A stretch of DNA of 64,000 nt, taken from the NCBI GenBank assembly GCA_030295235.1, contig AP026134.1, forward strand, positions 1,240,001 to 1,304,000. Direction: 5' to 3'. This document shows, one piece after another, positions 4,134 through 61,663 of this stretch. Source of the stretch: Fistulifera solaris (lineage: Eukaryota; Bacillariophyta; Bacillariophyceae; Naviculales; Stauroneidaceae). Below the pieces are notes generated by a model, which was not told the DNA's origin, did no database searches, and saw only the letters and a program-made list of their open reading frames with translations. Every line of letters starts with the position of its first letter. The first letter of the stretch is position 1. The translations under genes and the position numbers were made by a program.

Positions 4134-7100
4134 ATGTCTCCATGGAAAGTCAACAAACGAAATCCTTGTCGGAAGAGGCCAAGAACGTTGCTACTCGTAG
4201 GTGGCGGAGGTCTCTGTTTGTCGATATTGGTTGCTGGCTTACTCGTCTCGACATTGACACGAGCGAGTGACCCGCAAACACAGACATTACCCAGCACGCT
4301 TGATTCTCGAACATACCCTCTCGCATCTTCTTCTTCTTCGTCCGTTTATCACTTCAATCCGACGGATCACATTTCTCCTCTATCACACACCACGAATCGT
4401 CCTCCTAATGTTCTAACATCATCAGGGGACGCGCCCTATCCGACGAGTGCTTGGTATCAAAATTTATTGCTTTTGCCCGACGACGCTGTCGCCCCTACCA
4501 CTTTGGAGCACGCGTATGCTGTTCCCTACGTCGTCGATGCCGCTGGGCCTATTTCCGGAATTCGGCTTCATTCCGTCTCTCTGCAAGGTGATGAAAAGAA
4601 TATTTATGCCAATTATGCGACGGCACATAGTGTCACTTTGGGAAGTGCACCGACGAGTGATATGAATGCACGATACCAGATTCAACAAACTACGTCGCTG
4701 GGCGTGACACTGGAATGGACCGCAAACACAAACCATGATGATAATAGTAGCATGCAGAGTCCGATTGTGCGTGGTATGCCATACGCAACTATGATCTATT
4801 CAGGTACCACGATACCAATGATTGCCACGGAGATTGCCATTACGTCGATTCGAGTTGACCGAAGTGATGCGTCTGTTGCGTTGAAATGTGGCATGACTGC
4901 GCCTTCGTATTCGGTACAAGATGAATTGGAGATTTACCTGGAGGCCAGTGACGCGGCGTGGCTTATTTTTCCTTCCGATGCGGTGACAGTGAAATGCACA
5001 GCCGACATGCGTCTCGAATTCACCACCAATTCACAGTCATCCCCATTCATTCTAAGGTTGGCCTTGTCACAAGAAGATTCATCCTCTTCTTTCAATGATC
5101 ACCTCCGTCGCCATTCGAACTGGTATCCTGGATCACAACCTTCTGTTTCGACACGGCGTTCGTCGGACAGTACCGTGGAAATACAGTTTGACTGGGATGC
5201 GCAAAGTATGCGTTCAACGAATGCTTATGGCGAAACAACAGCCGCGGATGATTTGATTATCATGGCACTTCCCCATCATCAACAATACACTTCCCTGCAG
5301 CAACAAGGTAGTTCTAGCACTCTTTGCTCACCGTCATTGTTAGGTAAAGCGTGTTTTCAATCAGGCTCCAGTTGGACACTGACCGAAACAATACCACATG
5401 TCGGTTGGCGTGCACCACGAAGTCCATCGGCAGACGCACTGGGTGCATTAGGACAGGCACTGCAAACGGATCTGAAATACCAAGTTTTCGAACTGTTCCG
5501 AAAGGGCGGTGGAGATACTTACTTTTCTGGGAAGCAACTGGCCAAACTTGGACGTATTTGCCTAGTCGCGGAAGAATGGTTAGAGTTGTGCGACGACGGT
5601 GCCATTGACTGCGAAAAAGGCCCGACAACTGCGGAGCTCGAAAATGCAGTTCAAGAACTGAAACAATCGGTCGAAATTTGGTTTAATGGGACTGGTCTGA
5701 CACCGTTTGTGTATGATGAAGCATGGGGAGGTGTGGTCAGTTGTGGATGTCTGTTTGATGGAGGAGCTGGTTGTACCAACACATATCCCAATTGCCCCGC
5801 CCTCGCTGATCCTTTATTGAATTTTGGCAACGGAATGTACAACGACCAACACTTTCACTACGGATATTTCATTTATGCAGTTTCGATCGTCGCACATTTC
5901 GATCCGTCATGGGGCAGACAGTACTACGACAAAACACTATTGCTCATCAAATCGATTGCGAATGATGACCCGACGGATCCTTATTTTACCACTTTTCGAC
6001 ACAAGGACTGGTATTTCGGAAGCTCTTGGGCGAGTGGAATGAACCAGCCGCCGTTTCTTCGCGGTCGTAACCAAGAATCATCGAGTGAGGCGATTGCTGC
6101 ATATGAAGCCGTCGCTTTATATGGACGCACTCTTACAGAAGCGTGGCTGGAGGTCAACGATCAAGAAAAAGTGCAATTCGCAGAAAGTATTGAAACAACG
6201 GGATTGTCTATGCTTACGACCGAAATTCGGTCAACCCAACGGTATTGGCACATCCATCCCGGTCAAGACGTTCGAATATATCCAGATTACTACAAGCAAA
6301 ATGTTGCTGGAATTGTATGGCAGCTAATGCTTGTCTTCAGTACGTGGTTTGGATCCAACACGGAGTATATCTATGGTATACAACTCTTGCCATTGACCCC
6401 TATTTCTGGAAACAAGGGACCAAAGGGAATGGCTGGAAACCATTTATCCTATTTATGCCAAAGCCTGCTCAAATGTCGTTTGTTCGACATCAGGTTGGAA
6501 AGTTTTGCAAACAGCGACTCTCGCCTCCGTCGGGTATCAGCAAAAAGCAATTCAAGTAGCTTTAACGCTCCCGCCAACTGCATTCACGGATGCTGCCGGA
6601 GGCGGACATTCTCTTTCGAATACAATCTGGTACATTGCAACGAGGCCAAAAATAGACGACCCAGTTGTCTTTGACGATATTCCCAGCTCCGATGCTACTT
6701 TAAATTACTGCGACGCATCCTCCACCTGTACAGATTCGGTGCTCGATACCCTGGCAGACGGAACTACTTGTCGTTCACGAATCATATGGTTGATAGGTCA
6801 AGGGTCTTCAATTACTCAAGCATGCGCCCAGGTGGCTGGTTCCGAGTTTCCTGACGAGTGCGGCCCGTGCAATCCGTCGACCGCGCCAACTCCAGCGGTT
6901 TCGATTACAAACTCTACGGACTGCCCGCAATGCAACGCCGACATATGTGATGGGGATATGAACTCGTGTCCACTCGACCAGAGTGCACCTTTTCTTTGTA
7001 CAATGGGGCCCAATCTTCGTGGATGCAATGCTAGTCCTTGGCCTATTGACCAGCATTGTCTCGCATGCTGTGACCTCAGTTTCTGCGGAGGCTCGGATTC

Positions 7101-7683
7101 TCAACCAAGCGTTTCCTTACCAGCACCTGTACCAGCACCTGTACCAGCTCCGATACCGGTACTAACGCCTTCTTCACCTGCGGCACCAAGTGCAGCTGCA
7201 TCTTGTCCGCGATGTAGTACTGAGGTATGCAACGGCGAAATGAATATGTGTCCGGCGGACCAAAGTGCACCCTATCTGTGTACACTAGGACCAAATCTTC
7301 GGGGCTGCAACGCCAAACCCTGGCCTATCGACCAGCACTGTCTTCAATGCTGCGACCTTAATCTTTGTGGGGAACCAGCTCCTGCTCAGCAACCAACAGA
7401 CTTCGCTCCGGCACCTTTACCACCGTCTCCGACAAACGCATCCTTCACCCCACCAGACAACCCAATTGTAACAGGATGCTGTTCTCGAGACTTCAAAAGG
7501 TGCACTTCCACATGCGGAGACACGAAGGAGACATGCGAAGCTTGTAATTTGGTTTGGCTCCCCGAAGGTGGCCGCAATGACTGCCAAGGAACCGCTCAAC
7601 GCTGTAACGCTTGGGGCACTCAATGCTGCCCGGGACTACAATGCGTCGGGTATCGTTTGTTTCGACGATGTAGGGCAGTCTAA
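4134..7683 (+). CDS. GH81 endo-beta-1,3-glucanase, membrane-anchored, with C-terminal Cys-rich modules
   Basis: Glycoside hydrolase family 81 cleaves beta-1,3-glucans; in a diatom the likely substrate is chrysolaminarin or wall callose. Starting at ATG 4134, a short basic cytosolic tail precedes one hydrophobic segment (about residues 17-40), a type II anchor. GH81 hallmarks follow: YPTSAWYQNLLL, YNDQHFHYGY (catalytic Asp region), GRNQESSSEAIAAYEAV (catalytic Glu region), NVAGIVWQ and GIQLLPLTPIS. The frame breaks at 6408-6409: reading TCT-GAA with one G fewer continues as ETRDQREWLETIYPIYAKAC, the expected family sequence, giving about 1182 residues. After the catalytic domain come two nearly identical Cys modules (about 6919-7080 and 7204-7370; GPNLRGCNA, PWPIDQHCL, CCDL), joined by a PAPVPAPVPAPIP linker, and a third distinct Cys-rich tail. 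The modules may bind glycan or wall; that is inference. Confidence 0.9.
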
Positions 7684-8464
7684 TGGTTAAAGACGAACTA
7701 GAATACCCATTTTATCTGCAGCGCACAGTCTTAGTAGTTGCACATGAGCGGTTCCGACTTGCGACATTTTTCGTCACGACTCCTATAGTAATAGAAAAAT
7801 CACTTCATCTATAGTGATATGCGGTTTCGCACAACCTACGTATTATCATTTCAATTAAAATTATTTATGGATTTAATCGGCAAAGACAAGCGAAAAAAAG
7901 AAACGAAAGGGACGAGGAGCCGAATAGGACCGCGAAGTGGGCAAATAATTCATGAAACAACAAGACCTGATACTTGTAAAGGCACAAATGGGTAGCATCG
8001 ATATCATCGCAATCGTTTGTCGCTTTGGCAAAACACTCGTGACTCCTCGCGTGATTGGAGACTGCATGTTCGGCGCTGGTACTGGTACCGGTACCAGATA
8101 CCAGGTAGTGATACGTGATACTAAAAAGATTAAAAATGCCTCGGGACGACTTAATAATAAAGTCCTGTAATCAGCAAACAGGATAGGTGCAGACTGTACT
8201 CGAATGGCACACAATGGCTCGTGCAACGTCCATTTGAGCAAGACTTTTCCATAAACTCGTACCGAGGTAAAAACTGTAATTTTACATGACATTGCAACAA
8301 ACCGAGCAAATACAATAGCGACGAAAAGCAATAATAGAGCTCGGCTTTATCGCTCACAGAACGAGAACCACAATCGAAGCTCACTGTCGTCGCAAGGAGA
8401 TCATCGAGCTTTACGAATTGTCGGTTTTTATAGCTTATAGCTTATACCATTGATAAAGAAAGAC
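7684..8464. other. Intergenic, GGTACC-rich
   Basis: No supported gene. A GGTACC palindrome array lies at 8077-8105. A 152-codon frame on the minus strand runs through that array and lacks convincing protein features. Confidence 0.55.
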
Positions 8465-10896
8465 ATGACGCTCGGTTCCTTTTTGTTAGCTATCATATCA
8501 GTGCTTTGCACAAGCAGTGCAAGTGAGCACCTTCGATCAAAGAATGTAGCATCGGAAGAGGCTGCAAGAAGGGAACTCGCATCTCATCCATCGTCGGTTG
8601 AAAAGGCAAATAATGGTTTTATCGATCGAAAAGTCACTTTAATCAAACATTGGATCGCAAATCGTGAACGAGCAGCGGTGAGGTCACAGACTGACAGCTC
8701 AATTCACGATATCAATGCCGGTTTGTTCGTTTTCGCAAATCCGGATCTATTCGACACGAACGATTTTGCTGGCTTGGGGGGACTACCCGAAGAATCTTCC
8801 TTCGATCAACAAAAAGATGCGTACCTCAGAAATGTATCCGAGTTTGTAAGCTCCATTGAAATCTTTGAGACCGTAGGTACAGACTTTGGAAGTTTTGATA
8901 CACCTGGAATAGGAAAGTACAAACCGGATGGCGTAACGAAAACTTTCGGAGGCGACTGGGATTTTGTCCTTACCTTTCTGTCTCCAATACTTTACCAACA
9001 CATCAACAGAACCGACCTACTAACCAACGATATGCGATGGAACTTGCTTCGACAGGGCACTGTCGACGGTGAAATCCCGTATTCAGGAAATACTCTCTCC
9101 TACCTCGAAGCCAACTTGTTCTTTTCCGATTCAAACCTCTCATGAAAGTCCGCGTCAGAATGATAGAAACCGAAAACCACATATTACAAATCTACACTTG
9201 GATGTATTTGATTAACAATTACGTCCGTTACATTGCCCAGCTCGACCCATCGGATGAACGATACGATCCTCGGGTCGCTGAGTTGTATGTCAATAATCCG
9301 GATCATTACAACAACAGTCCCGAGCTGGTGGATTTGATGCTACAGATGACTGGCATCATTTTACACAAAGATTTGTTTGAAACCAATTCGAAGCCGTATG
9401 AAGCTTACTCGGTATTATCTTTGATCTTATTGTACTCGTACTCTGACCGTTTGTTCCCTGACGACGAGGTCAATCAGAAAATAAAAATGGCAGCTCATAA
9501 TGCACTCGACTTCCTCGCAGTAAAATTTACTTTCCAGACGTTTCAAGGAAAGCGCATATCTCCCATGAGACGGAATTGGAGTGATAGGAACATTTTGGGG
9601 TTTTACGAAAATGACCACCTACCCACTATGTACGCGGCACTTTCGGGTGTCAACTTCTTCCCCATACCGACAGAAGGGTTTTACTTCCTTAGAGAAGGAA
9701 TGACCATACTGACAGCTTTGATGGACTATAGAGTGCCCGAGGAGATTCACGACTACATGCTCGACCGCCACGACGGGTTTTGGGCACGGATGCAGTCAAG
9801 CTATTACACGGATCACTTCCATCTTTCGTACAGTGCGAGTTCCCTTACGCGACCCCCTCCAGTACCCGATCCTTGTCCAGCGACCTTTTTCAAAGACGAT
9901 GGCAGTGTTTACAAGTCTGGCATTTTCAGACCCATACCGCAAGTTTACTTCGGAACTAACGACTTTCTCAACTCCGCGGGTGGTTGCGGCCAAGATTTCT
10001 TGAAGATAGAGGCCCCGCTTCGATTTCTTCCGTTTGACATTGACACCCTGGCCGATTTGCGCGCGATTTCCAAGCCCAATGTACTGGTCAGTAAGCCTGA
10101 CTATCGTTACTACGCCGAAAATATTACGTTGCTGGAGGAGGACTACCTTATCATGCGTGGCGAACTGGATCCTTCGATGAGCAAGAACCTGAACACGTAC
10201 AAAAGCTTCACTTTCGGTTATTCAAAAGGGCAACATGGATCCGATAAGTATAAAGAGTGGCCCATGACCGTTCCTCGCGACTGGGACAGTTTCTTGGCCC
10301 TTTCCTTTTCAATTAACCGAGGAAGCTTTCGAATTTACGACTTTTCTAGCTCAGCTGCAACGCATCCCATGAACGGATATTATTTGATTATGGCAAAGGT
10401 CAGCAAACTGCCCGTCGGAAGCGATCTTCGCACCGTAGCACGGGGCTTTTGGGAAATTGTACCTCTCCGCATGTATGAATCAGTGGAAGCACTGGCTTCG
10501 TACATGCGTCAAAAAAATCCAAGCTCCTTTTTCAGCAAGAATATCATTCTTCCATACAAGTACGTCTTGGCGACGACAGGGGAGAAGATCAAAATAGACG
10601 CAAGAGCTGGGGGCATTGGCGACGAAAGATGCAGCGCAATTCGGGCAATCTGGGGCCCTGATGGGCGGAAACGGAACTTGAATGAGTATCATTTTGATAC
10701 TTTGAGCTTACAAAAGATGGAAGGAATCGGGCTTGTCGATGTTTGGGAGATTGATTCCAATTATACGATTGGCAACAAAATAGCTTGCGCAGCAGGTGAC
10801 GGTCGTCTCTTCGTTAAAAACAGACATATAGGGTCAAGTATCGAGATTGATGGGAGCGACTATCGAAATCCAAAGCGGAAAATTGTTCCGTTGTAA
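8465..10896 (+). CDS. Large secreted protein of unknown function
   Basis: I do not recognise a named family. The ATG at 8465 starts a clear signal peptide (MTLGSFLLAIISVLCTSSAS). About 810 residues follow. Distinctive segments include MRWNLLRQGTVDGEIPYSGN, MKVRVRMIETENHILQIYTW, RNWSDRNILGFYENDHLPTM and a C-terminal part rich in beta-strand-like sequence. The Trp/Tyr-rich helical first two thirds and an ETENH segment recall secreted polysaccharide-lyase or toroid-type bacterial proteins, but this is an impression, not an assignment. The frame breaks in a T run at 9122-9125; adding one T joins EANLF to FRFKPLMKVRV and restores one frame. It lies beside the GH81 glucanase, in the same orientation, which would fit a role in extracellular glycan turnover. 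Confidence 0.8.
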
Positions 10897-10969
10897 TATC
10901 ACTGCAGTCGAAGCCGGCCGCCGCACAGCTTTTTTTAAAAACGAAAAGTAGATTGTTTTTACCATCTTC

Positions 10970-12261
10970 TCATTGTCCTAGATAAAGCGTATGATTGTCA
11001 CCTGAGACTATTCGGAAATCACGAAGAACGGCTTTTGTTGAATCAAACTCAGTCCTCTTCGTATGAATGAACCGTCCCCAATTCGAATTCAGCTCCCCGA
11101 CAAACACTTGAGCACGAATCATGACCTCCAAGTCAACCATGGCGTCGATCGTCATGTTGTAACGCACGTGACAGTCGGGTTCGGTGTTCATGTGACCGGA
11201 CTGCAAACGGCGATCTGCCAACAAATGAAACGTCCAGGGGGTTGCCTTCAGTTGTTTTATTTCGTCTCGAATTGTCACTGGATCATCTGTAGCGATGTAC
11301 ACATGAGAGGGATCTTTACCGGGATCGAGTTGAGCGACATACGCTTCCAAGGGAATGTAATTGGAATGATTGCGCGGATCTGATTCTCCCCGTGAGGCCC
11401 AATACTTTCGTACCATAGCTGCCGCTTCGCGTTTCAATTTGTCGCCCCGTCGAATATGTAAAGCAGTGTAGCTCTGCGGCAAGTGAAATGCTTGCAGATG
11501 ATGGGCGATGAGGGGTTGTAAAAAGGGTTGCCACTGGATATGAGGCGCCAACAACGCTGCCACTCCCAACCACGGGTCGTCGTCTTGCTGTTGTTCTTGT
11601 ATCTGCTGAAACCACTGTATTTGTGTCAATGTCACGCCACCAATGGACGATATCCATTGCGTATAATTCTTTGCTGTGATGTTTCATGCAATCGTTGTAA
11701 GTACTGTCGCCGTAACCTTCTACCGCCACTGACCATGACAGAAGCACCATGACACGTCAGATTGAAAAAGTCATTTGTCGAAGAGGACAGTAAGCGTGTC
11801 CATTCAGAATGATTGAAAGGGCAGAGTACACTCGCGCAAGTATGCCGACGAGAAGAAGGAACATCTAAAATCTGTGACAAGCCCGTTGAGTGATGTTCGG
11901 AATCAGGAGAACAACCAAAAACAGGGCGTGCTGTTGGTTCGATTATTGGATCCCATACGATGAGTGTCCGATGAAAGGTCGCCGCAACATGGAAAGCCAA
12001 TATGTAGTTTTGCAATTGAGAGCAAATGCCATTGTTGGAAATATCGCGGGGAAGGTACAAGAATAATTGCGAGCAGTCGAGCGGTATTGCCTTTGCGAGT
12101 GAATGATCGTCGCCTTCTTTGCTCCACTGTGGGCGAATAATCGGAGAAACGTCCGTTTCCGAGAAGAAGAATTGCAGAGATATGACTGAGATTAAGACAA
12201 GTATTGCCATAAGAAAGGAGATCACATGAAGCGACGCCTTTTGGTAGGAAATAATCCTCAT
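10970..12261 (-). CDS. Type II membrane glycosyltransferase, fucosyltransferase-like
   Basis: A predicted Golgi enzyme of about 430 residues. From the ATG at 12261 a short basic tail precedes one transmembrane anchor (SLHVISFLMAILVLISVISL). The N-terminal half has NGICSQLQNYILAFHVAATF then RTLIVWDP, the layout of GDP-fucose-binding O-fucosyltransferase-like folds. The C-terminal half has ALHIRRGDK and DLEVMIRAQVFVGELNSNWG, which resemble fucosyltransferase motifs in the FUT8/POFUT superfamily. Donor and acceptor cannot be told from this. The frame breaks at about 11670-11672 (AAA on the coding strand); one more A yields SQQKNYTQWISSIGG and joins both halves. A second, weaker-related gene lies at 23286-24447. 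Confidence 0.72.
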
Positions 12262-13332: not shown

Positions 13333-15146
13333 TTATCTCTTCTCTACTCTTATCTTTTCCTCGTTCACGCTTTCAGTCGCTGAGGTTTCCTGCGGAGTGA
13401 CAGCTGTAGCTACGCTTCTCATGAAGCGTCCGTTTTCGCTACGCTGCTTATCAATGGTGGAAGTCAGCGCCAAGTTGTATTCCATGCAATCATGAACCGA
13501 TTCGAATAAAGTAGATGCCCCAGCAAACCAAGTGCGCAAACCCCCTTGACGCCGCATGAGTTTCACCGGCAGTCCCTTGTTTAATCCTTCCTGAGTCCAA
13601 CGCTGGAAGTATGGCCACACTTTCTGCTCATGGATTTCGATGTCTTGAAAGCCGGCAGCCTTCAAATCGTTCAACAGTGTAGCCTCTAATTCTTGGCGGT
13701 ACTCGGTCGTGTTGGGGCGAGACTCTTCTACGTACTGGTAGGAAATTAAAAAGTCGCGATCGCGAGTTCCGACATCTTCTGGAAAAAATATCTTGGCAGA
13801 ATTTCGAACGGTCATGAGGCGGGCCTGCTTCTGGGGATCTAACGAGGTCGTCCACGAGGAAATGGCAACCGGATCCGTAGAATGCTGGCATGAAAACAAG
13901 GTGGTGATAAGATTGGACCGGTCTTGAAGTCCATCAAAGATTTCCTTTTCTTCAGGTCTAGCATCCAAGAATTGCAAGGCATCTTTCAAGTTGCAGGTGA
14001 TGACACAAAAGTCATAGTCATACTTGTGGCCGTCTTTGGTAGTGATCACAACTCTATCATCGGAACGCTCCATTTTGGATATTTCGAAACCTTCCTTCAC
14101 ATTGATGCGGCCAGAATTGTAGATCCATTCCCAATACTGTACAAACCCGTTGCGTAGAATGCTGGCAGGCTGCTTCACCATGCGCAACTTGGTCGCCAAG
14201 AAGCCTTCAATTTCGGCCGGAGCATTCCACCATAAACCGTACAAGGCAGGGACGTGATCGATGTACCCATAACCTTGAACGGTATTGGCGAGAGAAATGA
14301 CAGGAATCAAGTCATCAAATCCATTCTTGATGAGCCACGCTTTGAGATCCATATTGGTCGCACTGATGATATCATTGATTGGTTTGGCAAAGAGGCTATC
14401 ATGTTTTCGGATAAAGCGAAGCATATCAACTGCCACAGCAATCTCGGAAGCAAAGTCCGGAAGAAGGCGGAAAGGGAATTTCTTCTTCTTGCTCGAGATG
14501 AGCCATTCTGTCTGTGTGATGGGTTCTTTATCCGTGTAATCGGCATAGACGTGACGCTCCGGAACAGGAATCTCCTCAAAGAAAACGTTGCCCGTTGCTG
14601 CCGCAATTCGACGTAGTTCTTGGTACTTGTATGGGATTGTATAACACGTTCCAAACTCTTGGGGTACTTCCTTTTCGTAGATATACTCGGTGAACGATTT
14701 TCCAGCGATACGAACATCTTTTTCCAACACGGTTACATGCTGAAAGCCGAGTTCATTAAGTTTGAAAGCCATATGTAAGCCAGCCGGCCCTGCTCCTACA
14801 ATTGCGATCTTGTCGGTAACCTGAGGAGTGTATTCCGGATCCAACAATTCTTCCCACTTATTGAACCTTTGTGCCTTCGATGGGACATAGCCCTCATTGA
14901 GCTTCTTGAGCACTTCTTGTTTCTTCTTAAGCTCCAAGCCTTTCTCTACTCCCTTTCGAACCATAAAAAGAGAGGTCTTTGAGATTTGAGACGTGGTTGG
15001 AGTCAAGAGAGCCGAATCCTTTTCCCAAGAAAAGAACTTGTTGTCTGGGTCGAAGGCTGCGGTGAGGAAACCACAAAAGCCGCACCTGCATCGCATGTCG
15101 AGGCTAGAAGACAAGCGATGGATAGAGTAATAGAAACGTATTTCAT
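13333..15146 (-). CDS. FAD-dependent amine-oxidase-type oxidoreductase, plastid-type leader
   Basis: A flavoprotein of the NAD(P)-binding Rossmann / flavin amine oxidase superfamily. The FAD-binding motif is KIAIVGAGPAGLHMA, followed by VTVLEKDVRIAGKS. The ATG at 15146 gives a signal peptide, MKYVSITLSIACLLASTCDA, then GAA^FVVSS, an A^F cleavage site typical of diatom plastid import. The leader and the main frame are out of phase: one A more in the AAAA run (plus-strand TTTT, 15020-15023) reads SSFLGKKDSALLTPTTS and gives about 604 residues. Substrate is unknown; the sequence recalls polyenoic-fatty-acid-isomerase-like and phytoene-desaturase-like relatives, with no residue that decides between them. 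It is divergent from a second FAD oxidoreductase at 15807. Confidence 0.85.
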
Positions 15147-15806: not shown

Positions 15807-17329
15807 ATGAAGCTCTTAACTCACCAGTATTCTCTATTCGGCCTCTTCTCGGCCTCTTTGCTCTTGACTACAAGAGCCTTCCATCTCGGCCCTCCTCGTC
15901 TTCCTACACGCTCTTCTTTTCCGATCCATAATCATGTTGGGTTGAACACAAGGTGCCTCATGGCCGCGAGTGTTGCCGACTTGAGTCCTCCTTCCAAGGA
16001 CCAAAGTATCGGAATCATCGGCGGAGGCCCGTCGGGCATCGCTGCTGCTTGGTTCCTGATGCAGAAAGGATATTCGGATGTGACCGTTCTCGAAGGAGCA
16101 AGCGAAGTGGGCGGCAAATGTCGGACAGTAAACTACACTGACTCCAAGGGAAACACCAACAACTACGAACTAGGTGCCGAGTACATCACTTATGCCTACG
16201 ACACCTTGTTCGACTTCATGGATGATGTCGGAGAGAAATGGGTCCCTGCAGGAGGAATAGAAGTCATTTTGGGCGGGGGCAAGTTCATCGAAGCATTGAA
16301 ATATAGTCCGATCCACAAGGTTCTTCCGGCAGCAATAAAATATCTCCTTATTCTTATCAAGTATCGCAACATCATTTCCAACCCAAGTAACGCAGGCATT
16401 GCAGCAATTCCATTTCTTTCCCAAAGTTCTGACGACTTCATCGAGAAGGAGGGGCTACAAGCTCTCAAACCGATCTTCCTAGTTCGACAATTTGGATATG
16501 GGCCTTTCCCTCAATTTCCTACCATCAATTTGCTTCGAACTGTACCTTTACCCACTCTGCTGCGTTCGCTTGGTGAACAGATTCCGATTGTCAAGAATTT
16601 CTTCAAGCGTCCGATTGCGGCTTTGGCCGTTGATGGTACACAAGGATTATTCCAGAAGATGGCCGTCTCGCTAAACGAGAAGAAGTCCGCCGCTGGCCAG
16701 TCCGGTGATGCAGTTTTAGTGGGACAAAAGGTCACGGCTATGACGCAAAAGAACGGCAAGATTGTTGTTGACACCGCCTCTGGCCAAAAGCACACGTTCG
16801 ATAAAGTCATTTGTGCTATTCCTCCAGATGTTGTTGAAAAGCTTTTTAAGTTTTCAGAAGAAGAGAGCAATTTGATGAAAATGATTGGCTACGATCCCTA
16901 CTTTGTGGCCTGCATCGATCCGGACTACAACTTGGAGCGTGCCTACTACCAGAATCTTGAAACTCTCGAGGATGATCCAGTACAGTTCAGCAAGCGATGG
17001 ACGGATAGTGCTATCGTAGCTTACGGTTACAACTGGAAGACTGCCGAGAAGGTTTTAAACAAGAAGAATCTCGAAAAGCTTCACTGTGAATTGTCGAATT
17101 ATTGCAAGAACAACATGAATATTAATTCTTTTCATTCATGCCAAATCCGGCTTTGTGGGAAACATACCATCCCAACGTCCCAATCGAAGCGTATCAAGAT
17201 GGATATTACGACAAACTTGAAGCTATTCAGGGAAAGTATGGCTTGTACCTGACGGGGGACGGCATGGCAGCCGAAAGTATGGAATACAGCTGCAAGTACT
17301 CGAAACAACTTATTGATCGTTTCTTTTAA
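15807..17329 (+). CDS. FAD-dependent amine-oxidase-type oxidoreductase, plastid-type leader
   Basis: Second flavoprotein of the pair. ATG 15807 gives a signal peptide ending TTRA^FHLGPP, the A^F plastid-entry site. The dinucleotide fold is IGIIGGGPSGIAAAWFL followed by VTVLEGASEVGGKCRTV. The C-terminal FAD segment is GLYLTGDGMAAESMEYS, matching the usual 'YxxGE/D' closing block of amine oxidases. The frame breaks at the T run 17129-17132: one more T reads NSFSFMPNPALWETYHPNVP and yields about 507 residues. An upstream in-frame ATG at 15774 would lengthen the leader without improving it, so 15807 is preferred. Substrate unknown; a carotenoid or fatty-acid role would be speculation. Confidence 0.85.
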
Positions 17330-17653: not shown

Positions 17654-18114
17654 ATGAGTGAAGTACGCGCTGGTACGTTCACCGGTTGTCTTTCTATCGA
17701 TTTCTTCGCATCTTACTCTGAAAGATAGTTATCTTCAACAACAACAATGACATTCTTACACATTTACAATGCGCGCTATCTCTCTACAGCACATTTGTTG
17801 ATCAAACACACCAACAGTCGTAATCCTGTATCGAGACGAACGGGTCAGACGGTCACGCTCACTCCAACAGAGGCACAAAAGAATTGGAATCGTATCAACA
17901 AGCGCTACTGCAGAAAGGATTGTCGCAATTCCCCGAGTACGCCAAACAACGTTCCGATTGTAGTTCGTATCAAAATGGCGGTGACTTGGGTTTCTTCGGG
18001 CGTGGAACTATGCAAAAGCCTTTTGAGGAAGCGGCATTTGCTTTGGAGCCCGGACAAATGAGTGGCATTGTGTCGACGGATAGTGGATATCATTTGGTGT
18101 ATCGTATTGAATGA
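17654..18114 (+). CDS. PIN1: Pin1-type parvulin peptidyl-prolyl isomerase
   Basis: A rotamase of the parvulin family that isomerises phospho-Ser/Thr-Pro bonds, here without a WW domain, as in plant Pin1At. Exon 1 (17654-17672) encodes MSEVRA; a 117 bp intron (17673-17789, GTACGT...CTACAG, phase 1) leads to AHLLIKHTNSRNPVSRRTG, whose Lys and Arg residues match the Pin1 phosphate-binding loop. Later blocks are SDCSS, GGDLGFFGRGTMQKPFEEAA, FALEPGQMSG and TDSGYHLVYRIE. The frame breaks in AAAA at 17877-17880: one more A reads TEAQKELESYQQALL and completes a 114-residue protein, the size of a single-domain Pin1. Likely nuclear or cytosolic. Confidence 0.93.
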
Positions 18115-18310: not shown

Positions 18311-21128
18311 TCATCTTTCGCCACCACTTCGGTTGCGCTGTGTCCCTCGACCATTCATCATGCTCGCGTGGGTCCATCCTCCTCGACCTCCTCCCCGGCC
18401 GCGCTGCGTCCCTCGACCAGCGGTGCCTCGTTCGCGACTTGTGGAGACAGCACGATAGTTGTTTGTCGAATTATTATTTGTGGTAGGACGAGTTCGTGCC
18501 AGCACTTGATTCGGTTGCGGTAAAGATATTTCCATTTCGCGACGAAACGAGGTATCGCACAGAATGCAGGTTGTGACGAAAGAACCCAGATGCGGTGGTA
18601 CACTCCCACGTTTCCATGTAAACTTCATTTTCAACACCAAATGACCGGGCCTCGAACAGGTCGCACAAAGGCCATCTTCATTCTCATTTGAGGTAACATC
18701 AAGCACAGTCACTTCCTCGCACTCCTTGGGCAGCCAAATGGAATACGGACACCGATTACCGCGCTGAAAGTGAGTGCAGGATACTACGTAACCACGCGAC
18801 GTTTTGCGCAAGGTTACACTTTGGGTCGGATTGCCTTGACTGGCACAAAAGGGACAATGGAACAAGGTCACGTCGGGTGTCCCGAGCGACAATGGACATT
18901 CTATGTTGGTACAATTCAAGCAGCGAAAATCGGGAGCGTGACCTGGTGGTGGATTTGAAAAACAATGCGGACAAACATTGTACCCACTTCCCGTATAACC
19001 ATCCCCAGTAGTAATTTGGACCACCTGATACTGACACAAGGGACAAATGACTGGTTGGTTTTGTGCATCTCGTTTCGGTTGTGGTATTCCGCGCGGCAAT
19101 GCCCAAGTCCGTGAGCAAGATGCACAATGCAGCATCTTTCGTGTCACTCGCCCTTGTATGTTGTGCTTCAATGTCATAGGATGACGGCACGTCCCACATA
19201 ACGTGAACTGCTCTTGCACAACAGTACTTGTATCCCCAAGCGATTGATAGTGCCGCGCCACGGCACGGTCAAGTAAATGAGCTTCTTGGACCGCAGTTCG
19301 ATAGCACTGTTGCATTTTCTCCAACAACCGAAGTACCACTTCTTCTGCAGTCTTTTGACCCGCCGCAATTAGATTGCATTCCGCTTCCGTTTCGCGTCGT
19401 AGATCCGGTTTATTCAATTGATAGCCCATACTGTTGTACCCTTCCACCAAAGCAATGCCCAATTGAGTCGGCGAGAATTTTAAGTTGCCGTCTTTAACTG
19501 CGTATTCTCTATCTTGAATGGTGGCAATGTGTTGTGCAATCGTAGCGTCCGTCCCAATACCGTGTCGATCCATCAAAGAGATCAATTCTACTTCAGATAG
19601 AGGCGAGGGCGGCGTAGTACGGCCCTCTTTCATTGTCAAGGATGTGGGCCGTATCCGACTTCCGACTGGTAACGATGGTAGTTCTCCTTGTCCTGTAGAC
19701 CAGCGTTCCCATGGTCGATAGGCATCAAGCCAGTTACGTTCTAAAACCATAAGACCCGTAGCTTGAAATTCCTCTTCTCCCATGCGAACCACTAATTGCG
19801 TTTCCCGCCCTACTGCATCTCGAGAACAGCAGGCTAAATAATGCTTGACGACCAGTTCATACACACGTCGCTGCTGATGATTGCCAATAGAAGCGGGATC
19901 TACAGCTTTACAGGGTGTAATGGGCGGATGTGCTTGATCGTCGTTCGGACCAGCACGCGGATTTTGGAAATGTCCTGGTAGTAGCAATCGCTGCGCCAAC
20001 TCTCCCATTTCTCCTGGCATGGTTGCCAACTGTTCCAAGAGCGGTCGATGTTGGAATTCGGGACGGAAGCGCTCTGTTTCCGTTCTCGGGTAAGAAATGT
20101 ATCCTTGTTGATACAGTTCTTCCGCCGCCGTCATCAACTGTTCACTGCTAATCTGCAGGAAACGACTCGCCCGTTTTTGCAACTCTACCGTTGCCAGCGG
20201 AACCGGACGCCATTTATGCTTCGGTCGACCGTTTGCAGATATAACAATAGCGTCTTGAGCATCGAGGCAGGCTTCGTATAATATGAGTGTAGTTAGTTGA
20301 TCGTACAATCGAGTGCGCTTCCATTGAAAGATGATAGGCCGAGCGTTCGCCTCGTCTGCCGTCAAGGTCAATTCTAAAAACCAGAAATCTTCCGGTGCAA
20401 AGGTTTGTATTCTAGCCCATCGCTCTACTACAAATCCCAATGTAGGGGAATTGACAGGGCCCGTACGAAACGACCCCTTCTGTCGGCAAGACAAATTGTC
20501 GTTGCAATCGTTTGGTTTGAAAGCGCGTAAAGGCCGCTCCAACTCGTAAATCTAATTCCATTCTCGCCTGTACTGCCTTGACATGATGTTCATTGAGTCT
20601 TCCCAGTGATCGCAATGCGGATTGTATTTCTTGCGGCAGAACTGTACTAAATCGAGCTCGATAAATCGGCATTTGAGGGTGTACTTGTAATAGTACGGTG
20701 CGCACTTCATCCCCAATGGCTTCTCCTTCTCGATCGCAATCGAGCCATAATATACAAGCTTGTACCTCCCGCGCTAGCTGTTGTAAATTGCGGAAGATCG
20801 GTTGCATATCTTCTTTGTATTGTGTTTCTAAAGGAACTTGCGGTGTTAAAAGAACACTCGGATCGCATTTACTCCATCCGTACGCTTCCGGGAAATCGAT
20901 ACTTGCTAAATGCCCGCGTACACTCGTCGTAATCATAGTATGTGATACAATAGGACCGTCTAATCGCACGCCATTGCCTTGTTGGAAAATCTGAGGAAAA
21001 TCGACACGTTCGTGACGAAAGACTTGTATGTTGTGATTCCGTTGCATGTCGCTTTGACGTCCAAAGACTTGCGCCAAAGAACGAGCGACGCTGGGTTTCT
21101 CGGCTACATTTAATACTTTGATAGTCAT
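18311..21128 (-). CDS. TOP3A: DNA topoisomerase III (type IA, TOP3alpha-like)
   Basis: Type IA topoisomerase, which relaxes negative supercoils and dissolves double Holliday junctions with RecQ helicases. The N-terminal Toprim domain begins KVLNVAEKPSVARSLA and carries the acidic WLDCDREGEAIGDEV motif. The active-site tyrosine is in GYISYPRTETERF. MDRHGIGTDATIAQHI is the conserved 'GIGTDAT' block. The C-terminus has several CxxC zinc ribbons (CGTCRHPM...CASC, CPLC...CPHC, CLNC...CPFC, CATC...CILC) and an RG-rich tail. The frame breaks at plus-strand GGGG 20445-20448: one C fewer on the coding strand reads PCQFPTLGFVVERWA, the expected family sequence, for about 938 residues. Zinc ribbons and tail support alpha rather than beta. 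Confidence 0.94.
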
Positions 21129-23285: not shown

Positions 23286-24447
23286 TCAGTTCGGCTCGCT
23301 GGAAATCAAAATATCCAAAACTTTTTCGCGACCATTGTCTTCTTGCCACAAATCGAAGATTCGGATCGAATCAATAATGTCTTTCTGGTCGACCTTGGAA
23401 ACAGTTCCAAAAGTAGCACTGAAGGGCATCGTCATGTAAGGTAAGTACCAGCCGTAAGAACTTGCTGCGCTAGAATGAAGCGTGCGTACTGCAGTGCAAT
23501 GGACTCACTAGGAGGACCGCGTACGTTGACACGAGCTTGTGGGAATCTCTTTTGTAAGTAAAGTTGCAAAGCGTCGACTACAATCGCGCAGCGACTTTTC
23601 TCATCTTGAAAGTCCTGGATGACGATACCGATCGAAGATGCCGCGTCTGAAATCAGGTCGGCCAAGGCAGCGAAGCGAGCATATCCATAGTTGAGATGAG
23701 GAGTCTTTTCCAGAATATCTCCGCAGCGGAAATGAAGAGCGACATCGTCCACTTCTACTTTCGGAACCAGGGGAGACGAAGATACCACACCAGTCTGCAA
23801 CTGGCGATCAACGTTGGTTCCGGACGAACGGGCATGTATTCCTACCAGAGAAATCGCCATGCGCCGAAGATTGTTGCGCAGATCCTCCAGGATAGACCCT
23901 TCCAAAAACCAAACAGGCTTACAGGCGGCCTCACGATTTATATCCCATGCCGTTTGTGCTTCAAACGTCCCCATCGCCCAAGGGAGAATCAAATTGTGCA
24001 TTGTATCCGCAGCATCAATACATTCCATTTGAAGTTCACATATCCGATGAGGCTCGCGGCTCTGCGTAGATTGTACACGAACAGCAGCCATTTGCCTGTA
24101 CTGAAGTTGGAGTGATCGTGTAGATCTTGACAATTGAATGCGTAGCGTACTCGTAGCGGCACTTGGGACACATCATTCCTTTCTCGCAAGTCGCGACAAA
24201 GTATGAGCTGACTGTTGTGAAAGAACTCTTGAATGTGCTCTTCGGCGTGATCTGGGTTATAGCTTAAATGAAAAGTTTCTTCAGGATTCAACGACGCAGA
24301 AGCAGAGGTTTTCATAATCTTGGTAGAAACATTGAAGAAAATATACTTCATTGCAAGTTCACCTTGCGTAGAAACTAACACAATCGCCAGGGGAACTATC
24401 AAGATAACAAAAAGCAACGAGCTTCGTGTGTTGTAAGTTATCATCAT
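23286..24447 (-). CDS. Type II membrane glycosyltransferase-like protein
   Basis: Predicted secretory-pathway protein of about 387 residues with an N-terminal hydrophobic anchor (LLFVILIVPLAIVLVS). The C-terminal half has DDVALHFRCGDIL, SIGIVIQDFQDEKSRCAIVV and ESIALQYARFILAQQVL, resembling the nucleotide-sugar-binding half of fucosyltransferase-like enzymes, as in the gene at 10970-12261. Two breaks need repair: one more A in the coding-strand AAA (plus TTT 24091-24093) reads NFSTGKMAAVRVQ, and one more T at plus 23456-23457 reads QVLYGWYLPYMTMPFSATFG and carries the frame to the stop at 23286-23288. The extension past 23432 is supported by the natural-looking sequence. Exact activity unknown. 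Confidence 0.7.
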
Positions 24448-25331: not shown

Positions 25332-25349
25332 ACCCAGGTTACCGGTCCG

Positions 25350-29086: not shown

Positions 29087-29448
29087 ATGGGAGGATTAAC
29101 TGCCAAAAAGAAAGGAATCCGTTCAAAAAAGAAACAATACAAACGCAAAGTATGGTTGTGTCATCGTGATAAAGATGTCGATCAAATTCAAGAAGAAATG
29201 GAAAAGGGAACTCACAATGAAAAGCCCAATTTTGATGATGAATTGCCGGGAGGAGGGCAATTCTATTGTGTCGAGACAGGAAAGCATTTCATCAACAGCG
29301 AAGCCTTGGAGAAACACAAAAGACCAAATTCTTTAAACGAAGACTGAAGCAACTGCAAGAAGAAAAATATACACAACAAACGGCGGAATGGGCCAGTGGT
29401 ATGACTAAAGAGGTATTGCCACCGGCACATTCGGACTTACAAAAATAA
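29087..29448 (+). CDS. C2H2 zinc-finger ribosome-biogenesis factor (Bud20/ZNF593-like)
   Basis: About 120 residues. A basic N-terminus (TAKKKGIRSKKKQYKRKVW) precedes DKDVDQIQEEM, GGGQFYCVETGKHFINSEAL and, after the break, KTKFFKRRLKQLQ. This is the order in Bud20/ZNF593, which accompany pre-60S ribosomal particles out of the nucleus. In the finger itself the second Cys position is GK rather than CxxC (YCVETGKHF), so zinc binding may be altered. The frame breaks in AAAA at 29318-29321; one more A reads EKHKKTKFFKRRLKQL, giving the family's HKKTKxHKRRLK block. Confidence 0.85.
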
Positions 29449-42208: not shown

Positions 42209-43112
42209 ATGAATCATTCGAATTCGCGGGAAATGAGCCGCATCGATACAGTAGCAGAAAATAGAATACACAAAGAAGGTGATGGATTTGACAAGGAAGA
42301 AATCATCGACGACTGGCAGTTGGATATGAATTTTCACGTCTTTTCGAAACATACACTACAAACAATTTCGGCACAGGATACTTTGGTACATCTGGAATGT
42401 GTGGAGCAGTTAACTCCCGTGGATATGATGAATTTGGCCAATGGAGAACACGATGCCACCGGTCATTGTGTATGGACGGGGGCCTTCCTTTTACTCGATG
42501 CACTCGGTGTGCTATTAGAAGAGTGTTTTACAGAAAAACGAATATTGGAACTGGGTTGTGGGACTGGGATTGGTGGCATTGGTCTAATGTGTGCGCACGA
42601 CAAAGAACGACGACCAAGCTATGTCTTGTTGACCGACGCAGATCCAGATGCTTTACAAGTATGTCAACGCAACTGTCAGCAACATAACAAGCTTCCAAAA
42701 AACAAGTACGGAATACAAGAGTTAACGTGGGGAGAGCCATTGTCACCCGAAACTCTGAGTGCATCGTTCGATACTACTTTGGCGACGGACGTATTGTACG
42801 ACATTGCGTTGCTACCGCCTCTGTTTCAAACCGCGCATTCGGCCCTGAAAGCAAATGGTCTTTTTGTCTTGTCACATGTACCCAGAGCTTGTTATAGTTC
42901 CCAGCACCCACCAGTCGATGATTTGGATCAGTATATTATCGATCAGGCAACACGAAGTGGCTTTTTTCTTGCATCGGCACATAGTTCCCAACCAACTTCC
43001 GAGAGCGTTCCGTACGGAAGGGTCGTTGAATGAACCGGCTTCTTTAAGTGATATGCAAGAAGTGGGTGCTTCCCTTTTGTGTTTCGTAAAACACCTATTT
43101 TTTAACAATTAA
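42209..43112 (+). CDS. METTL21-type protein lysine methyltransferase
   Basis: Seven-beta-strand SAM-dependent methyltransferase of the lysine-methyltransferase family (METTL18/21-like). The SAM motif is RILELGCGTGIGGIGLMCA, followed by VLLTDADPDALQVCQRNCQQ and DTTLATDVLYDIALLPPLF. The frame breaks in CCC at 42987-42989: dropping one C reads AHSSNQLPRAFRTEGSLNEP and continues to a natural end, VGASLLCFVKHLF, the closing beta-strand block of the fold. About 300 residues from ATG 42209. Starts further upstream would add a stretch with a hydrophobic run and RAF; the GTACAAAGTAC repeat there argues against it. Target protein unknown. Confidence 0.82.
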
Positions 43113-49265: not shown

Positions 49266-50884
49266 ATGCACATGCTGCTGCCATCGCGTGTCGTTTTTCC
49301 AATGGGAATGATCTTTTTGGGGACGATGCATCGCATGCTACGCACCGCTGTCTCTTTTTCGGTCCCTCCTGTTACAAGTACGAATAGTCGAAGACTGGTG
49401 CCTACTGCAACTGCAACGCGCCTCTATTCGACAACTCCGGCTACTTCCACCTCAGCTTCATTTGCGCCCCGTGTCAAAACAGTAGATGCTAAGGAACCCA
49501 CTGATTCGGATATCACCATCAAAGGATGGGTGAGAACTATTCGCAAACAAAAACTCTAGCCTTTGCTCAAGTGAATGATGGAAGTAATTTGGGAGGCATA
49601 CAATGTGTCTTGAATTTCGACCAATTGGATGAAGCCAGTCAAGCTGCGATCGACCAAGTTACGACTGGATGTGCTGTTCAAATTACCGGTCCCCTTGTTC
49701 CGTCGCAGGGTGGTCAGCAAGCTGTCGAAGTTGCCGCAAAAACACTCCGTGTCGTCGGATTGTGCCCCGCCGATACTTATCCACTGGCAAAGAAACGGCA
49801 TTCCCTGGAATACTTGCGCAGTATTGCCCATTTGCGGCCCCGCACCAATACGATTGCGGCGGTCGCCCGTGTTCGTTCGCAACTGGCAGCTGCCATTCAT
49901 TCCTTCTTTCAATCGCAAAACTTTGTGTACGTGCAGACACCCTTGATTACGGCCAGTGATTGTGAAGGAGCCGGGGAACTCTTTCGTGTGACAACCTTGG
50001 ATTTGGAACAAGAATTGCCGCGCTTGAACAATACCGACCGTACCGTAGATTACAGTCAGGATTTTTTCGGCAAACCCGCGTTCTTAACGGTCAGTGGACA
50101 GTTGGGTGGGGAAACTCACGCTTGCGCGTTAGGTGATATTTACACGTTCGGACCGACATTTCGGGCCGAAAACAGTCAAACTACCCGTCATTTGGCAGAA
50201 TTTCACATGGTGGAACCGGAAATGGCCTTTGCGGATTTGCAAACGGCCATGGAGAATGCGGAACAACTGTTGAAATATACAGTGTCGCATGTGTTGAAGA
50301 ATTGCCAGGAAGATTTGACGTTCTTTTCGTCCTTCTATGATAAGGAATTGCTGGATCGATTGCAAAAATTGGTAGATCAACCATTTGCGCGTGTTTCATA
50401 CCGTGAAGCAATAGCATATTTGCAAGAAGAAATTGCCAAGGATCCTTCCAAATGGCAATATCCGCATGTTGAATTCGGTACCGATCTTGCCACCGAACAC
50501 GAACGCTGGTTAGCTGAAACCAAGTTTGAATCTTGCGTTTTTGTGTACAACTATCCCGCCGCCATAAAAGCGTTTTACATGCGCGCCAACGATGAAGACA
50601 ATGGTGAAACAGTAAATGCTATGGACTTGTTGGTCCCCGGTGTCGGCGAGCTGGTGGGTGGTAGTCAACGAGAAGAGCGCTTGGATGTCCTCGAACAAAA
50701 GTTGCGCGACAATAATTTGAACTTGGACGATTATTGGTGGTACTTGGATTTGCGTCGGTATGGAAGTGTTCCTCATGCGGGATACGGCTTGGGATTTGAA
50801 CGACTGGTGCAGTATGTGACGGGAATCGAGAATATTCGCGAAGCCATCGCCTTTCCGCGGTATCCTGGAAATGCGGAGTTTTGA
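49266..50884 (+). CDS. NARS2: Asparaginyl-tRNA synthetase, organellar
   Basis: Class IIb synthetase charging tRNA-Asn. About 539 residues. The N-terminal ~75 residues ([14 protein letters not shown]..., Ser/Thr/Arg-rich) are a probable mitochondrial or dual-organelle leader. The OB-fold anticodon domain starts [15 protein letters not shown]. Catalytic motifs follow: [59 protein letters not shown] (motif 2), [18 protein letters not shown] and [19 protein letters not shown] (motif 3). It is of the bacterial/organellar AsnRS kind. The frame breaks at A5, 49549-49553: one more A reads [18 protein letters not shown], joining the leader to the body. Confidence 0.95.
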
Positions 50885-52206: not shown

Positions 52207-53519
52207 TTAATTTGACGGTCTGACGTTAACAAATGAATCCTCTACGGTTGGATCGGGAACGCACAAGTCACCAATTAATTCTGACCCTTCACACCACGAC
52301 TGAGATACAGCTTGGTCCAGCAAACGATGGATAGCCGCATGCAATGCGGTCCGTTTCTTTTCATTCAAAGGCCACAACAAAGCTAAAGCATTCCAAGCCG
52401 GTTGTGCATGTAACAACAGATAGGTGTTTTCGGGGTTTTGTTGATAGGAGTAAAATCCCAATGTCACCGATGTCGCCAAACGACAAGCAATTAATAGAGG
52501 TATAGCTCGTCGTTCAGCTTCTGACAATTCCGTGACGCTATGGTATCCACGCAAGACAGCGGCTGCCGCCGAGATACCGCGTTGCGATTTCCCGTACGAC
52601 GATAACATGGCGTACGCCATGCATACGGCGACATCGGCGACTCGCCAAGTTTCAACGGCATCGCCATAATCAATTACACCCGTGACACGACACTGCTCAT
52701 CACAGAGAACATTCGCATCATTTAAGTCATTGTGACACACGCCGACGGGCAACTTTTGCTGGAAATCCGGCAATTGAGCTGCAAATGCATCCAGAATAGA
52801 CAGGATTCGAGCTTGTTTGTCGTCGACTGTGGGTAAATATTGTATCACAAAGGGACGAATGTCCAAGACATGCCGAAGGTTCCAAATGTGATAGCGTTGT
52901 GCTGCCTTTTTCCATGGTGCATCCTTCTCGGCATGTTGTTGAGGAAACGCGACATCGAAAGCTCGATGCAAATGTCCTAAATAAAGACCCGTGAGAAACA
53001 GGGATTCAACGGGCAAGAAGAGAATCGTCGACATGGGTCGTCCCGGAACCCACGACAATAGACGACAACACAGTGTCTGGGGTGAATGTTGCTCCGAAAC
53101 GACGGACAAGGAAGCGGATAGAACTGTTGGAGCCGTATCGATAGGATTTTCGAAGAGTTTTCGGTCTTTTCGACCGGTAGATTGGAATTTATATGAGGCA
53201 CAGGACGTAAAGCTTCCATAAGAGCATTCTGAAAGGCAATACAGGACGTCTCGGCATCTTGGAGGAACTGTTTCGATTCAACACCATTGTGGATTTTGAA
53301 TAAATAAAACGTATCATCCAGTTGCACTTTATAGTTAGCATCATCGTATGAGTCGAGCTGTTGCAGGACTCGGCATGTTTGGGCCGTGAAGTGTTGTCGA
53401 AGGAGCTGTTCTACTGCTTCAAGAGAAACTGACGGTACAAGAAGCTTTCGCCACTCTTCTTCAGTTCGTTCTGCGTCACTTTTCTTGTTGTTATCACTGG
53501 AATAGGGGGACATTTCCAA
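52207..53519 (-). CDS. APH-fold kinase, hydroxylysine-kinase-like
   Basis: About 437 residues of the aminoglycoside-phosphotransferase/choline-kinase fold, closest in layout to hydroxylysine kinase (AGPHD1). The N-lobe has LLRQHFTAQTCRVLQQLDSY, DDANYKV and a Lys in FYLFKIHNG. The catalytic loop is VGVCHNDLNDANVL and the metal motif is VIDYGDAVETW. The frame breaks at plus TTTT 53167-53170: one more A on the coding strand reads VEKDRKLFENPIDTAPTVL and joins the two lobes. Substrate may be a hydroxylated amino acid, inferred from the family. Convergent with the SDR: their stops lie about 65 bp apart. Confidence 0.83.
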
Positions 53520-56728: not shown

Positions 56729-56810
56729 ACGAAGAAAGAGCTACGCATTCCAGAAGCTTCGACGAAAATACATAGCTACGTTGAATTCATTGTTGATTGA
56801 CGATAAGCAT

Positions 56811-59599: not shown

Positions 59600-61067
59600 A
59601 TGATACAAAATTTGCAGTTACCGTTAAATCACTTGTGGTACAAAGTAATGGGACCTACAACAAAGCACTTTGAATTGGAAGTGTATTTGTGGTTCGCGTC
59701 GCTACTTTTCATCATTTCCAGTTGGCAAGGTCTTTACAAAGAATTTCCTCCTTTGCGTTTGTTACTCATTGTAGGAATTGCATCGTCTCGACCTCTTTTC
59801 GCAAGATGGTTTATATCCCATTACAATCCTCGTTTACTGTCAGCGGGGCATGTCATGGAAGTTACAGAAGTTACTCCGCCGACACTCATCTCAACTTACT
59901 GGACACGTTATTGGCCTCAATGGATGCCGCCATTGCCATCTTTTGCTACTTTGCTTCCCATTTCTGTATTACTACTTTATATCAAAGCTTTCTGGAATTT
60001 GGAAGAGAGAGAGGATACTATTTCATGGAATTTATTAGCCATGGAACATCGACCAGACTTGAATTTGCCTGGACCGGCTGGCTTTTATTCGACCGAACGT
60101 CCTGATTGGAGACATGTGTTCTTCTACTTCACGGTTGGAGGTATTGTGGGCAGTATTTTGGTTTTTGGAAGACTTTTCCCGCCTCTACCGGATTTTGTGG
60201 CCGGCTCCACTGTCTATCAGACGATCAAATCAATTTATCCGAAACAAACATCCTCGCCTTCGACAATTACCGGTCCCGAACGCTTTTTTCCCGTCACCAA
60301 CTGCGACCGACTAAATCTTCATTTGAAGTTGCTCGTACTTCGGCTACTCGAAACCGTTTGCGTGTGTGGGTGGCTTCCTCGATCGGAATGGATGCTGCGA
60401 TTCCTTCGTCAACGAAACACCATGATTGATCTGGAATACTTTTTATTTTTTGCTGGTATCACAGGACCGCGTCGCAAAGATATACCCGAACCACTATCGG
60501 ATTCGTATTCGGCCTCGTGGATTTATGCAAGCCTTGTCTCGTCGACGGTCTTTTTTACTAGTGGCGCAGTCTTTGTTGACCGATCGCTCGTATCTTTCGA
60601 CTCTGGCATTTTGGTCGACCGAATGGAGACTCACAGAACCTCAGCAACAGCCACAGCAAGCCTCTCTTTGGGACGCTCGACACAAATACAAACCGGGTGA
60701 TTTTTGTGTCTACAACAATCTTACGTACCAGGCTGTGTTACACCATCCGCAAGGACCACCTATGCTTCGGTCGACACGGTGGATGAATTGGCTGTATGAG
60801 TGGTTGCAGGCCGAAGTAGGACACGGTGTGATGCATTCCCGAATTTGGTCCGAATTGCTACGCGTTCAATCTGTCTTGGTGATGGTGTTCCTAGTGCTCT
60901 GGTGTTTCGCCTTTTCTTCCTGGAGCAGTGGCTTGGGGACAGCGTTCCTAGCACACTTGGTGGTGTGGTATGGCTTGGTGCAAGTGGGTTCCACCGATTA
61001 CGTTGCGTTACAGAAACTGGCGACTGAAGTTCAAGTGACTTCCGAAATTGCGTTGAAAGTGTTATGA
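59600..61067 (+). CDS. Polytopic membrane protein of unknown function
   Basis: About 488 residues and several membrane spans: LEVYLWFASLLFIISSWQGL, FATLLPISVLLLYIKAFW, VFFYFTVGGIVGSILVFG, VLVMVFLVLWCFAFSSW and TAFLAHLVVWYGLVQVG. A soluble-looking segment reads WRLTEPQQQPQQASLWDARH then KYKPGDFCVYNNLTYQAVLH. I do not recognise the family. The frame changes between about 60470 and 60530: dropping one A of AAA (60476-60478) reads GPRRKIYPNHYRIRIRPRGF and connects both parts. This junction is less certain than the others because the sequence has no known family to compare with. Confidence 0.72.
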
Positions 61068-61248
61068 AACGTGGGTAGGTTAATAAAGGGAACCATAGGT
61101 TACGTTTATTAGGGAGTAAGAGGCTAACCTAGTAATATTGCGCTCTTGATTTATTATACATCGATATGACGAGCCGCTGAAAAGGATAATGTGTTTCGAT
61201 TCGACAGAGGAGAGTAGCAACCTTTTCCTACTCCACCGTTCTTTTGCT

Positions 61249-61663
61249 TTAAATGGACTCACTTTTCTTGGTTTGCTCTAAAGACTTCAATCGTTCCATA
61301 GCCTTTTCGTACTTGTCTTTCCATTCATCCAGTTCGTCTTCTAACTCGTTGATTTTTTGAACGAATACGCTGACGACTAGCTGCAGCACTCTCTCGATTG
61401 CGGACGCGACGAGCTTCCCGTCGCCACGCGGCAAGTTGATCTTTGTTCATCGGTACGGAAGGATCATAACGAACTTGTGTTTTCTTTTTGCCTTTGTTGT
61501 GATGAGGAGGCGCGTCATCGGCTTTGCGCTTCTTGGGTTCACTCGAGTCCGTTTCTGTTTCCATTTCGTTGTCAACCTCGTCACGTTGTGATGTAATAAT
61601 GGCTTTCCGACGTTTGCGAGCTTCCGCTGGGTCTGTCTTTTTTGTATCCGTATCGTCCTTCAT
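61249..61663 (-). CDS. bZIP transcription factor, first of a divergent pair
   Basis: About 137 residues. An acidic-basic N-terminus precedes the DNA-binding region AWRREARRVRNRESAAASRQ and a leucine zipper INELEDELDEWKDKYEKAME then RLKSLE. The frame breaks at plus TTTTTT 61353-61358: one base fewer on the coding strand reads RQRIRSKINELEDELDEW, fusing basic region and zipper in the right register. The basic region NxxSAxxSR is intact. Its divergent neighbour at 62302 has an almost identical basic region, so the pair probably arose by duplication. ATG 61663 is preferred over an upstream in-frame start. Confidence 0.92.

Follow-up and report, generated by a model that had tools for sequence, protein, structure and literature searches.

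Is a stretch of diatom DNA in which gene after gene changes reading frame a record of genes broken in the organism, or of intact genes misread during assembly? The stretch considered here, hereafter the window, is the full 64,000 nucleotides of C14:1240001-1304000 (AP026134.1) from Fistulifera solaris, taken from a eukaryotic assembly of 51.7 Mb in 61 contigs, and an earlier note made from its letters alone listed 18 sites at which a gene is split between two frames. The assembly cited for this species is Fsolaris_ONT_v03reference, GCA_030295235.1 (PMC12159174), and we take the nanopore origin of the sequence from the 'ONT' in that name. A 25-nt primer designed for the F. solaris gene g510 (PMC13276009) has an exact match on C39. 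Judged from sequence comparisons, the breaks are very probably (about 95%) residual consensus errors of the Oxford Nanopore assembly, an artefact beneath which the genes would be intact in the organism. This reading is carried by the identity of the assembly, by private breaks that face in-frame partners, by a spectrum dominated by single bases, by the lack of internal nonsense mutations and by errors seen between duplicates of plastid-like DNA.

The comparison that makes the question tractable is internal to the genome. F. solaris has been described as allodiploid (PMC13276009), and contig C13 carries a homoeologous region collinear with the window, the larger aligned blocks being 79–90% identical at the DNA level. 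This region (C13 coordinates below are positions within it) provides a second copy of most window genes and serves as an internal control. Reading frames were followed with a frame hidden Markov model (HMM) trained on nine long open stretches from the window itself; because its stop penalty (-7) is lower than the cost of exiting a coding stretch and entering it again, isolated stops should remain visible. By alignment to C13, by the HMM and by three-frame translations, all 18 listed frame breaks are present in the sequence. The HMM makes ten direct frame-to-frame changes in the window, every one of them at a listed site (within 0–56 nt). The model falls to its non-coding state at the remaining eight sites, which are close to the end of a gene or the edge of an exon; these were judged by eye from the alignments and from translating both copies in three frames. 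At 14 of the 18 sites the break is private to the window, the C13 copy keeping a single frame; at the other four (17129, 17877, 29318 and 40584) the frame changes at the same place in both copies. Because both copies change frame there, we infer, rather than read off the alignment, that these four are also single-base breaks. The breaks, by window position, are as follows.

6407..6435, plus strand: GH81 endo-1,3-beta-glucanase-like gene; private; HMM change at 6435 and a one-base difference from C13; Pfam Glyco_hydro_81 and 81C on the upstream piece, downstream piece without a family.
9122..9131, plus strand: gene without a Pfam match on either piece; private; alignment and HMM.
11644..11670, minus strand: O-FucT-like gene; private; Pfam PF10250 on one piece; alignment, HMM and translations.
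15015..15022, minus strand: flavin oxidoreductase-like gene (Pfam), broken near its start; private, the C13 copy being in frame throughout.
17129..17136, plus strand: amine oxidase-like gene; shared; HMM changes at window 17135 and C13-region 23935.
17877..17881, plus strand: PIN1-type parvulin; shared with the C13 copy (translations of both copies); Pfam Rotamase on the C piece, N piece without a Pfam match.
20441..20446, minus strand: type IA topoisomerase; private; Toprim and Topoisom_bac divided between two frames; alignment and HMM.
23440..23456, minus strand: break near the 3' end of a gene; private; alignment gap and translations.
24028..24091, minus strand, placed at about 24037: second break in the same gene; private; alignment gap.
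27309..27342, plus strand: WD40 protein; private; WD40 matches on both pieces; alignment.
29309..29318, plus strand: ZNF593/Bud20-type zinc-finger protein; shared with the C13 copy; HMM change in the window only.
35059..35066, minus strand: MgtC-family gene; private; MgtC profile positions 1-59 and 56-119 on the two pieces; alignment and HMM.
40583..40600, plus strand: break near a gene 3' end; both copies broken, with different net shifts; alignment and translations.
42950..42987, plus strand, placed at about 42962: lysine-methyltransferase-like gene; private; Methyltransf_16 upstream; alignment.
49549..49553, plus strand: class II (D/K/N) aminoacyl-tRNA synthetase, broken near its start; private; PF00152 and OB fold on the downstream piece, upstream piece without a family; alignment and HMM.
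53152..53167, minus strand: APH-type kinase-like gene (PF01636); private; HMM and translations.
60532..60556, plus strand, placed at about 60550: break listed at 60476; private; HMM, alignment gap and translations.
61348..61358, minus strand: bZIP-like gene, labelled by eye from its translation (no Pfam match for the one piece tried); private; alignment, HMM and translations.

The positions in the earlier note hold to within 6 nt at eight private sites, as judged by the alignment gap or the HMM switch, and require correction by 13–74 nt at six: 23456 moves to about 23440, 24091 to about 24037, 27309 to about 27340, 42987 to about 42962, 53167 to about 53154 and 60476 to about 60550. Since 23456 and 24091 lie in one gene, 17 genes are affected and not the 16 that it counted.

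A private break opposite an in-frame partner is also what decay of one homoeologue would leave, with real pseudogene mutations hidden by the intact copy. Loss of genes is expected after allopolyploidy, and most of the breaks are private, with the partner in frame at 14 of 18. The spectrum of changes between window and C13, however, differs from what such decay should produce. Among frame-breaking gaps (those not a multiple of three), 30 of 33 in coding sequence involve one base, compared with 131 of 316 in non-coding sequence (Fisher P=3e-8). Homopolymer context is also enriched: when gaps from the window and from C13 are counted together, 11 of the 23 one-base coding gaps tested fall within or next to a run of 4 or more, a setting that covers 7.4% of coding positions (P=2e-7). 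This test used 23 of the 30 coding one-base gaps; the seven omitted (window 22768, 23159, 39005, 39026, 40583, 53152 and 58179) fall at gene ends, in an intron or at divergent or composite spots.

Nonsense mutations tell the same way. For each frame-breaking gap, non-coding sequence has 7.9 substitutions, and in the compared codons 5% of neutral substitutions would be nonsense, so that some 12 nonsense mutations are expected to accompany 30 neutral frameshifts. The comparison took in 12,188 window codons with 3,152 differences and found no nonsense mutation inside a gene. The four codon pairs that do contain a stop (two in each direction) are not gene-internal: one (window 22790) is intronic in both copies, and the coordinates of the other three (window 58209, 58218 and about 2745) put each on the 5' edge of an open frame. 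A neutral pseudogene spectrum, with its nonsense changes and longer indels, is thus not what the coding sequence contains. Nor is one subgenome favored. The HMM makes ten direct frame changes in C13, equal to the number in the window; one place is common to both, and two of the C13 changes (8462 and 8813) form an out-and-back pair. Coding signal persists on both sides of the ten HMM breaks in the window, which also counts against decay, with the reservation that very young pseudogenes would look alike. Finally, four window genes are broken in both copies, as are two chaperonin pairs described below. We therefore regard decay of one homoeologue as very improbable. With 36.7 kb called coding by the HMM and aligned to C13, the 18 sites (14 private) correspond to about one error per 2–2.6 kb of coding sequence.

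A second alternative is that short introns have been mistaken for frameshifts. Three other apparent breaks in the window, at about 22.8, 44.5 and 46.65 kb and all absent from the earlier list, do resemble ordinary introns: the first is a GT-AG intron-like break at 22.75–22.81 kb, and the last, in a Na/Pi transporter gene, has a GT donor and an acceptor placed from the translation. At the 14 private sites introns are excluded, because the C13 copy is in frame without an insertion, and at the shared sites conserved coding sequence reaches the break from both sides. Of all the explanations weighed here we consider introns the least probable. The apparent intron at about 44.5 kb lies in a two-domain CrcB-type (fluoride exporter-like) gene (window 43870-45101, intron at about 44.55 kb). 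The places at about 44.5 and 46.65 kb were considered as missed frame breaks and are read as introns.

Direct evidence for an error process comes from plastid-like DNA in the same assembly. The groEL region, present twice on C60, differs between its copies by nine one-base indels and no substitutions in 3,414 columns, all nine in A/T runs of 5–6. The rps9 duplicate shows 29 gaps (42 bases; 19 of one base and 10 longer) and three substitutions; every gap shortens the same copy, and 28 of the 29 are in runs of 4 or more. A third comparison, of C60 with C61, gives one indel in 3,366 columns. The groEL region of C60 is taken as plastid DNA from its genes, and with 0–3 substitutions per 3.3–3.4 kb the duplicates are presumably copies of one molecule. 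They show the error process at work inside this assembly, in AT-rich organelle runs that exceed most nuclear runs in size. As for their arrangement, plastid-like sequence (rps9, groEL) is held more than once, on C60 (232,645 bp) and C61 (116,223 bp), and the copy around rps9 near the start of C60 is of lower quality.

The same pattern is found in conserved genes elsewhere in the assembly. In the TCP1/Cpn60 chaperonin family, nine homoeologous pairs were compared, and 9 of these 18 copies have frame breaks; two of the nine pairs, one on C25/C26 and one on C3/C4 near 12 kb, are broken in both copies. The set began with 46 matches, of which 30 were cut as loci and nine pairs compared; matches on C46, C60 and C61 are excluded from the count, as are the partial ones at C3:927 kb and C4:862 kb, and frame changes across match gaps of 68–105 nt in both copies were counted as presumed introns. 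Cytosolic chaperonin subunits have proved essential wherever they have been studied in eukaryotes, so the loss of both copies is implausible. Among proteasome genes, several split copies stand opposite an unsplit partner, as read from the match table rather than from alignments. The earlier note had favored sequence error over mass pseudogenisation, and that preference is borne out by the nanopore name of the assembly, by the errors between plastid-like duplicates and by one-base breaks of the same sort on C13 and in the chaperonins.

Several observations nevertheless weigh against consensus error as the whole account. Independent and uniform errors would be expected to coincide 0.16 times, and four shared breaks are seen. 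This estimate takes 18 window events and 16 C13 events (12 C13-only and the four shared); nine of the C13-only events are HMM frame changes and three are identified by a gap alone, one of which (window 29125) is doubtful, being 50 nt from a 2-base gap. The earlier note had placed the breaks in homopolymers, and this was overstated: 12 of the 23 examined gaps are outside and not beside runs of 4 or more. The sharing of four sites with the homoeologue was invisible to it. One short context that is always collapsed (A5 to A4 before GA) was considered and rejected as insufficient. Across the genome CACAAAAAGA shows no depletion (371 occurrences, against 248 for the reversed control), and no depletion of A5 before G was found in about 289 kb. 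Several one-copy errors also have the same surrounding sequence in both copies, so context alone is not decisive. The idea that errors escaped short-read polishing in stretches without differences between the homoeologues was likewise not supported, local identity being near background (0.918 around private window sites and 0.932 around C13-only sites, against 0.911). A smaller discrepancy is that PMC12159174 gives 62 sequences and 52 Mb for F. solaris, whereas 61 contigs were analysed here.

The shared breaks invite a third alternative, in which these four sites are conserved programmed frameshifts, or another form of recoding that yields the whole protein, and only the rest are errors. The breaks coincide in the two homoeologues more often than chance allows, and the proteins concerned are recognizable. 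The PIN1-type pieces match parvulin 2lj4 over residues 7-48 (N piece) and 38-113 (C piece), and the ZNF593-type pieces match ZNF593 chains over residues 17-82 of 6lss and 71-104 of 1zr9; these piece pairs cover consecutive parts, so conserved proteins are truly interrupted in the sequence of both copies. Around 29318, 90 aligned columns are identical between the copies. By eye, the upstream frame at 40584 in the window has C UUU UUA, which differs by one base from a classical -1 heptamer.

The details of the sites argue against such recoding. No full X XXY YYZ slippery heptamer is present in the upstream frame at any of the four, and the codon phase of the A run differs between 17877 and 29318 (both by eye). 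The runs are of A at two sites and of T at two, three of them being runs of 4 (one is 5 in the C13 copy) and the fourth T5. At 40584 the two copies would require different net shifts. Ribosomal slippage is unlikely at these sites given the missing heptamer, the varying phase and the unequal shifts, and similar one-base run losses are seen between the plastid-like duplicates. Conservation of the frameshift, assessed in the homoeologue comparison only, is absent at 14 of 18 sites and present at four. Conserved recoding at the shared sites is very improbable in our view, though a shade less so than decay of one homoeologue. An equally slim chance attaches to the more specific proposal that the genomic DNA does contain the four breaks, that they are older than the split between the two parents, and that an undescribed one-base recoding at short A/T runs bridges them to give the whole proteins.

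Consensus error may account for the shared sites as well. The basecaller and the consensus step would miscount or drop single bases, preferentially in A/T runs of 4–6, and where the local sequence is error-prone the same miscall could arise in both homoeologues. The four shared breaks would then be context-driven systematic errors, in contexts with a high error rate. Homoeologue identity around them is 0.952, somewhat above that at private sites and in the background. Effective short-read polishing was presumably absent.

How does this case compare with known systems? Nanopore indels and the gene fragmentation they cause have a broad literature. Small, loss-biased, homopolymer-enriched indels that split genes have been described in long-read assemblies (PMC12007338, PMC8812927), homopolymer-length errors have been described as the commonest residual error in long-read-only bacterial assemblies (PMC8812927), and diatom nanopore assemblies have needed short reads for indel correction (PMC8147415). 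The breaks described here are of the same kind, with three differences: (i) the genome is that of an allodiploid diatom, in which the second subgenome provides an internal control; (ii) four sites are common to both subgenomes; and (iii) half of the examined gaps are not associated with a run of 4 or more.

Programmed -1 ribosomal frameshifting shares with the window one protein encoded in two overlapping frames, but here there is no common slippery heptamer, the signs are mixed, the codon phase is variable and at 14 of 18 sites the homoeologue lacks the break. Homoeologue loss after allopolyploidy similarly leaves one copy broken and its partner in frame, but here internal nonsense is absent, longer frame-breaking indels are hardly seen, the subgenomes are symmetric and some conserved pairs have both copies broken.

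The alignment of the window also shows features of the two subgenomes apart from the frame breaks. Window 8511-10900 matches two adjacent copies on C13, at 79% and at 84% (the latter inside a longer block), a pattern that would reflect either a tandem duplication confined to one subgenome or a loss from the other. Window 45400-48900, which holds the SLC34-like Na/Pi cotransporter gene, has no collinear counterpart in the compared C13 region. An Aconitase X gene is found at window 31170-32453 (AcnX, PF04412, E=1.9e-103), and a separate frame change occurs in its C13 copy, at C13-region position 39124. At window 12593-13021 there is a dispersed repeat of about 410 bp with more than 30 further copies in the genome, a lower bound; most are 86–92% identical, and one copy on C29 reaches 97%.

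The sequence itself is ordinary, and the practical use of these observations is mainly as a warning on gene models built from this assembly. With 18 sites in 36.7 kb of coding sequence and half of the 18 chaperonin copies split, such models should hold many split genes or false introns. F. solaris was annotated in PMC12159174; a search of the main text of that paper for the terms 'frameshift', 'sequencing error' and 'nanopore' found none of them. Table 2 of the same paper gives a raw BRAKER single-exon/multi-exon ratio of 0.8 for F. solaris and of 0.32 for F. pelliculosa (reference Fpelliculosa_ONT_v02), and the only other species below 1 there are Cyclostephanos tholiformis (0.8) and Discostella pseudostelligera (0.93). 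The low single-exon ratios of the two Fistulifera assemblies may reflect false introns placed over indel errors, which would give such values.

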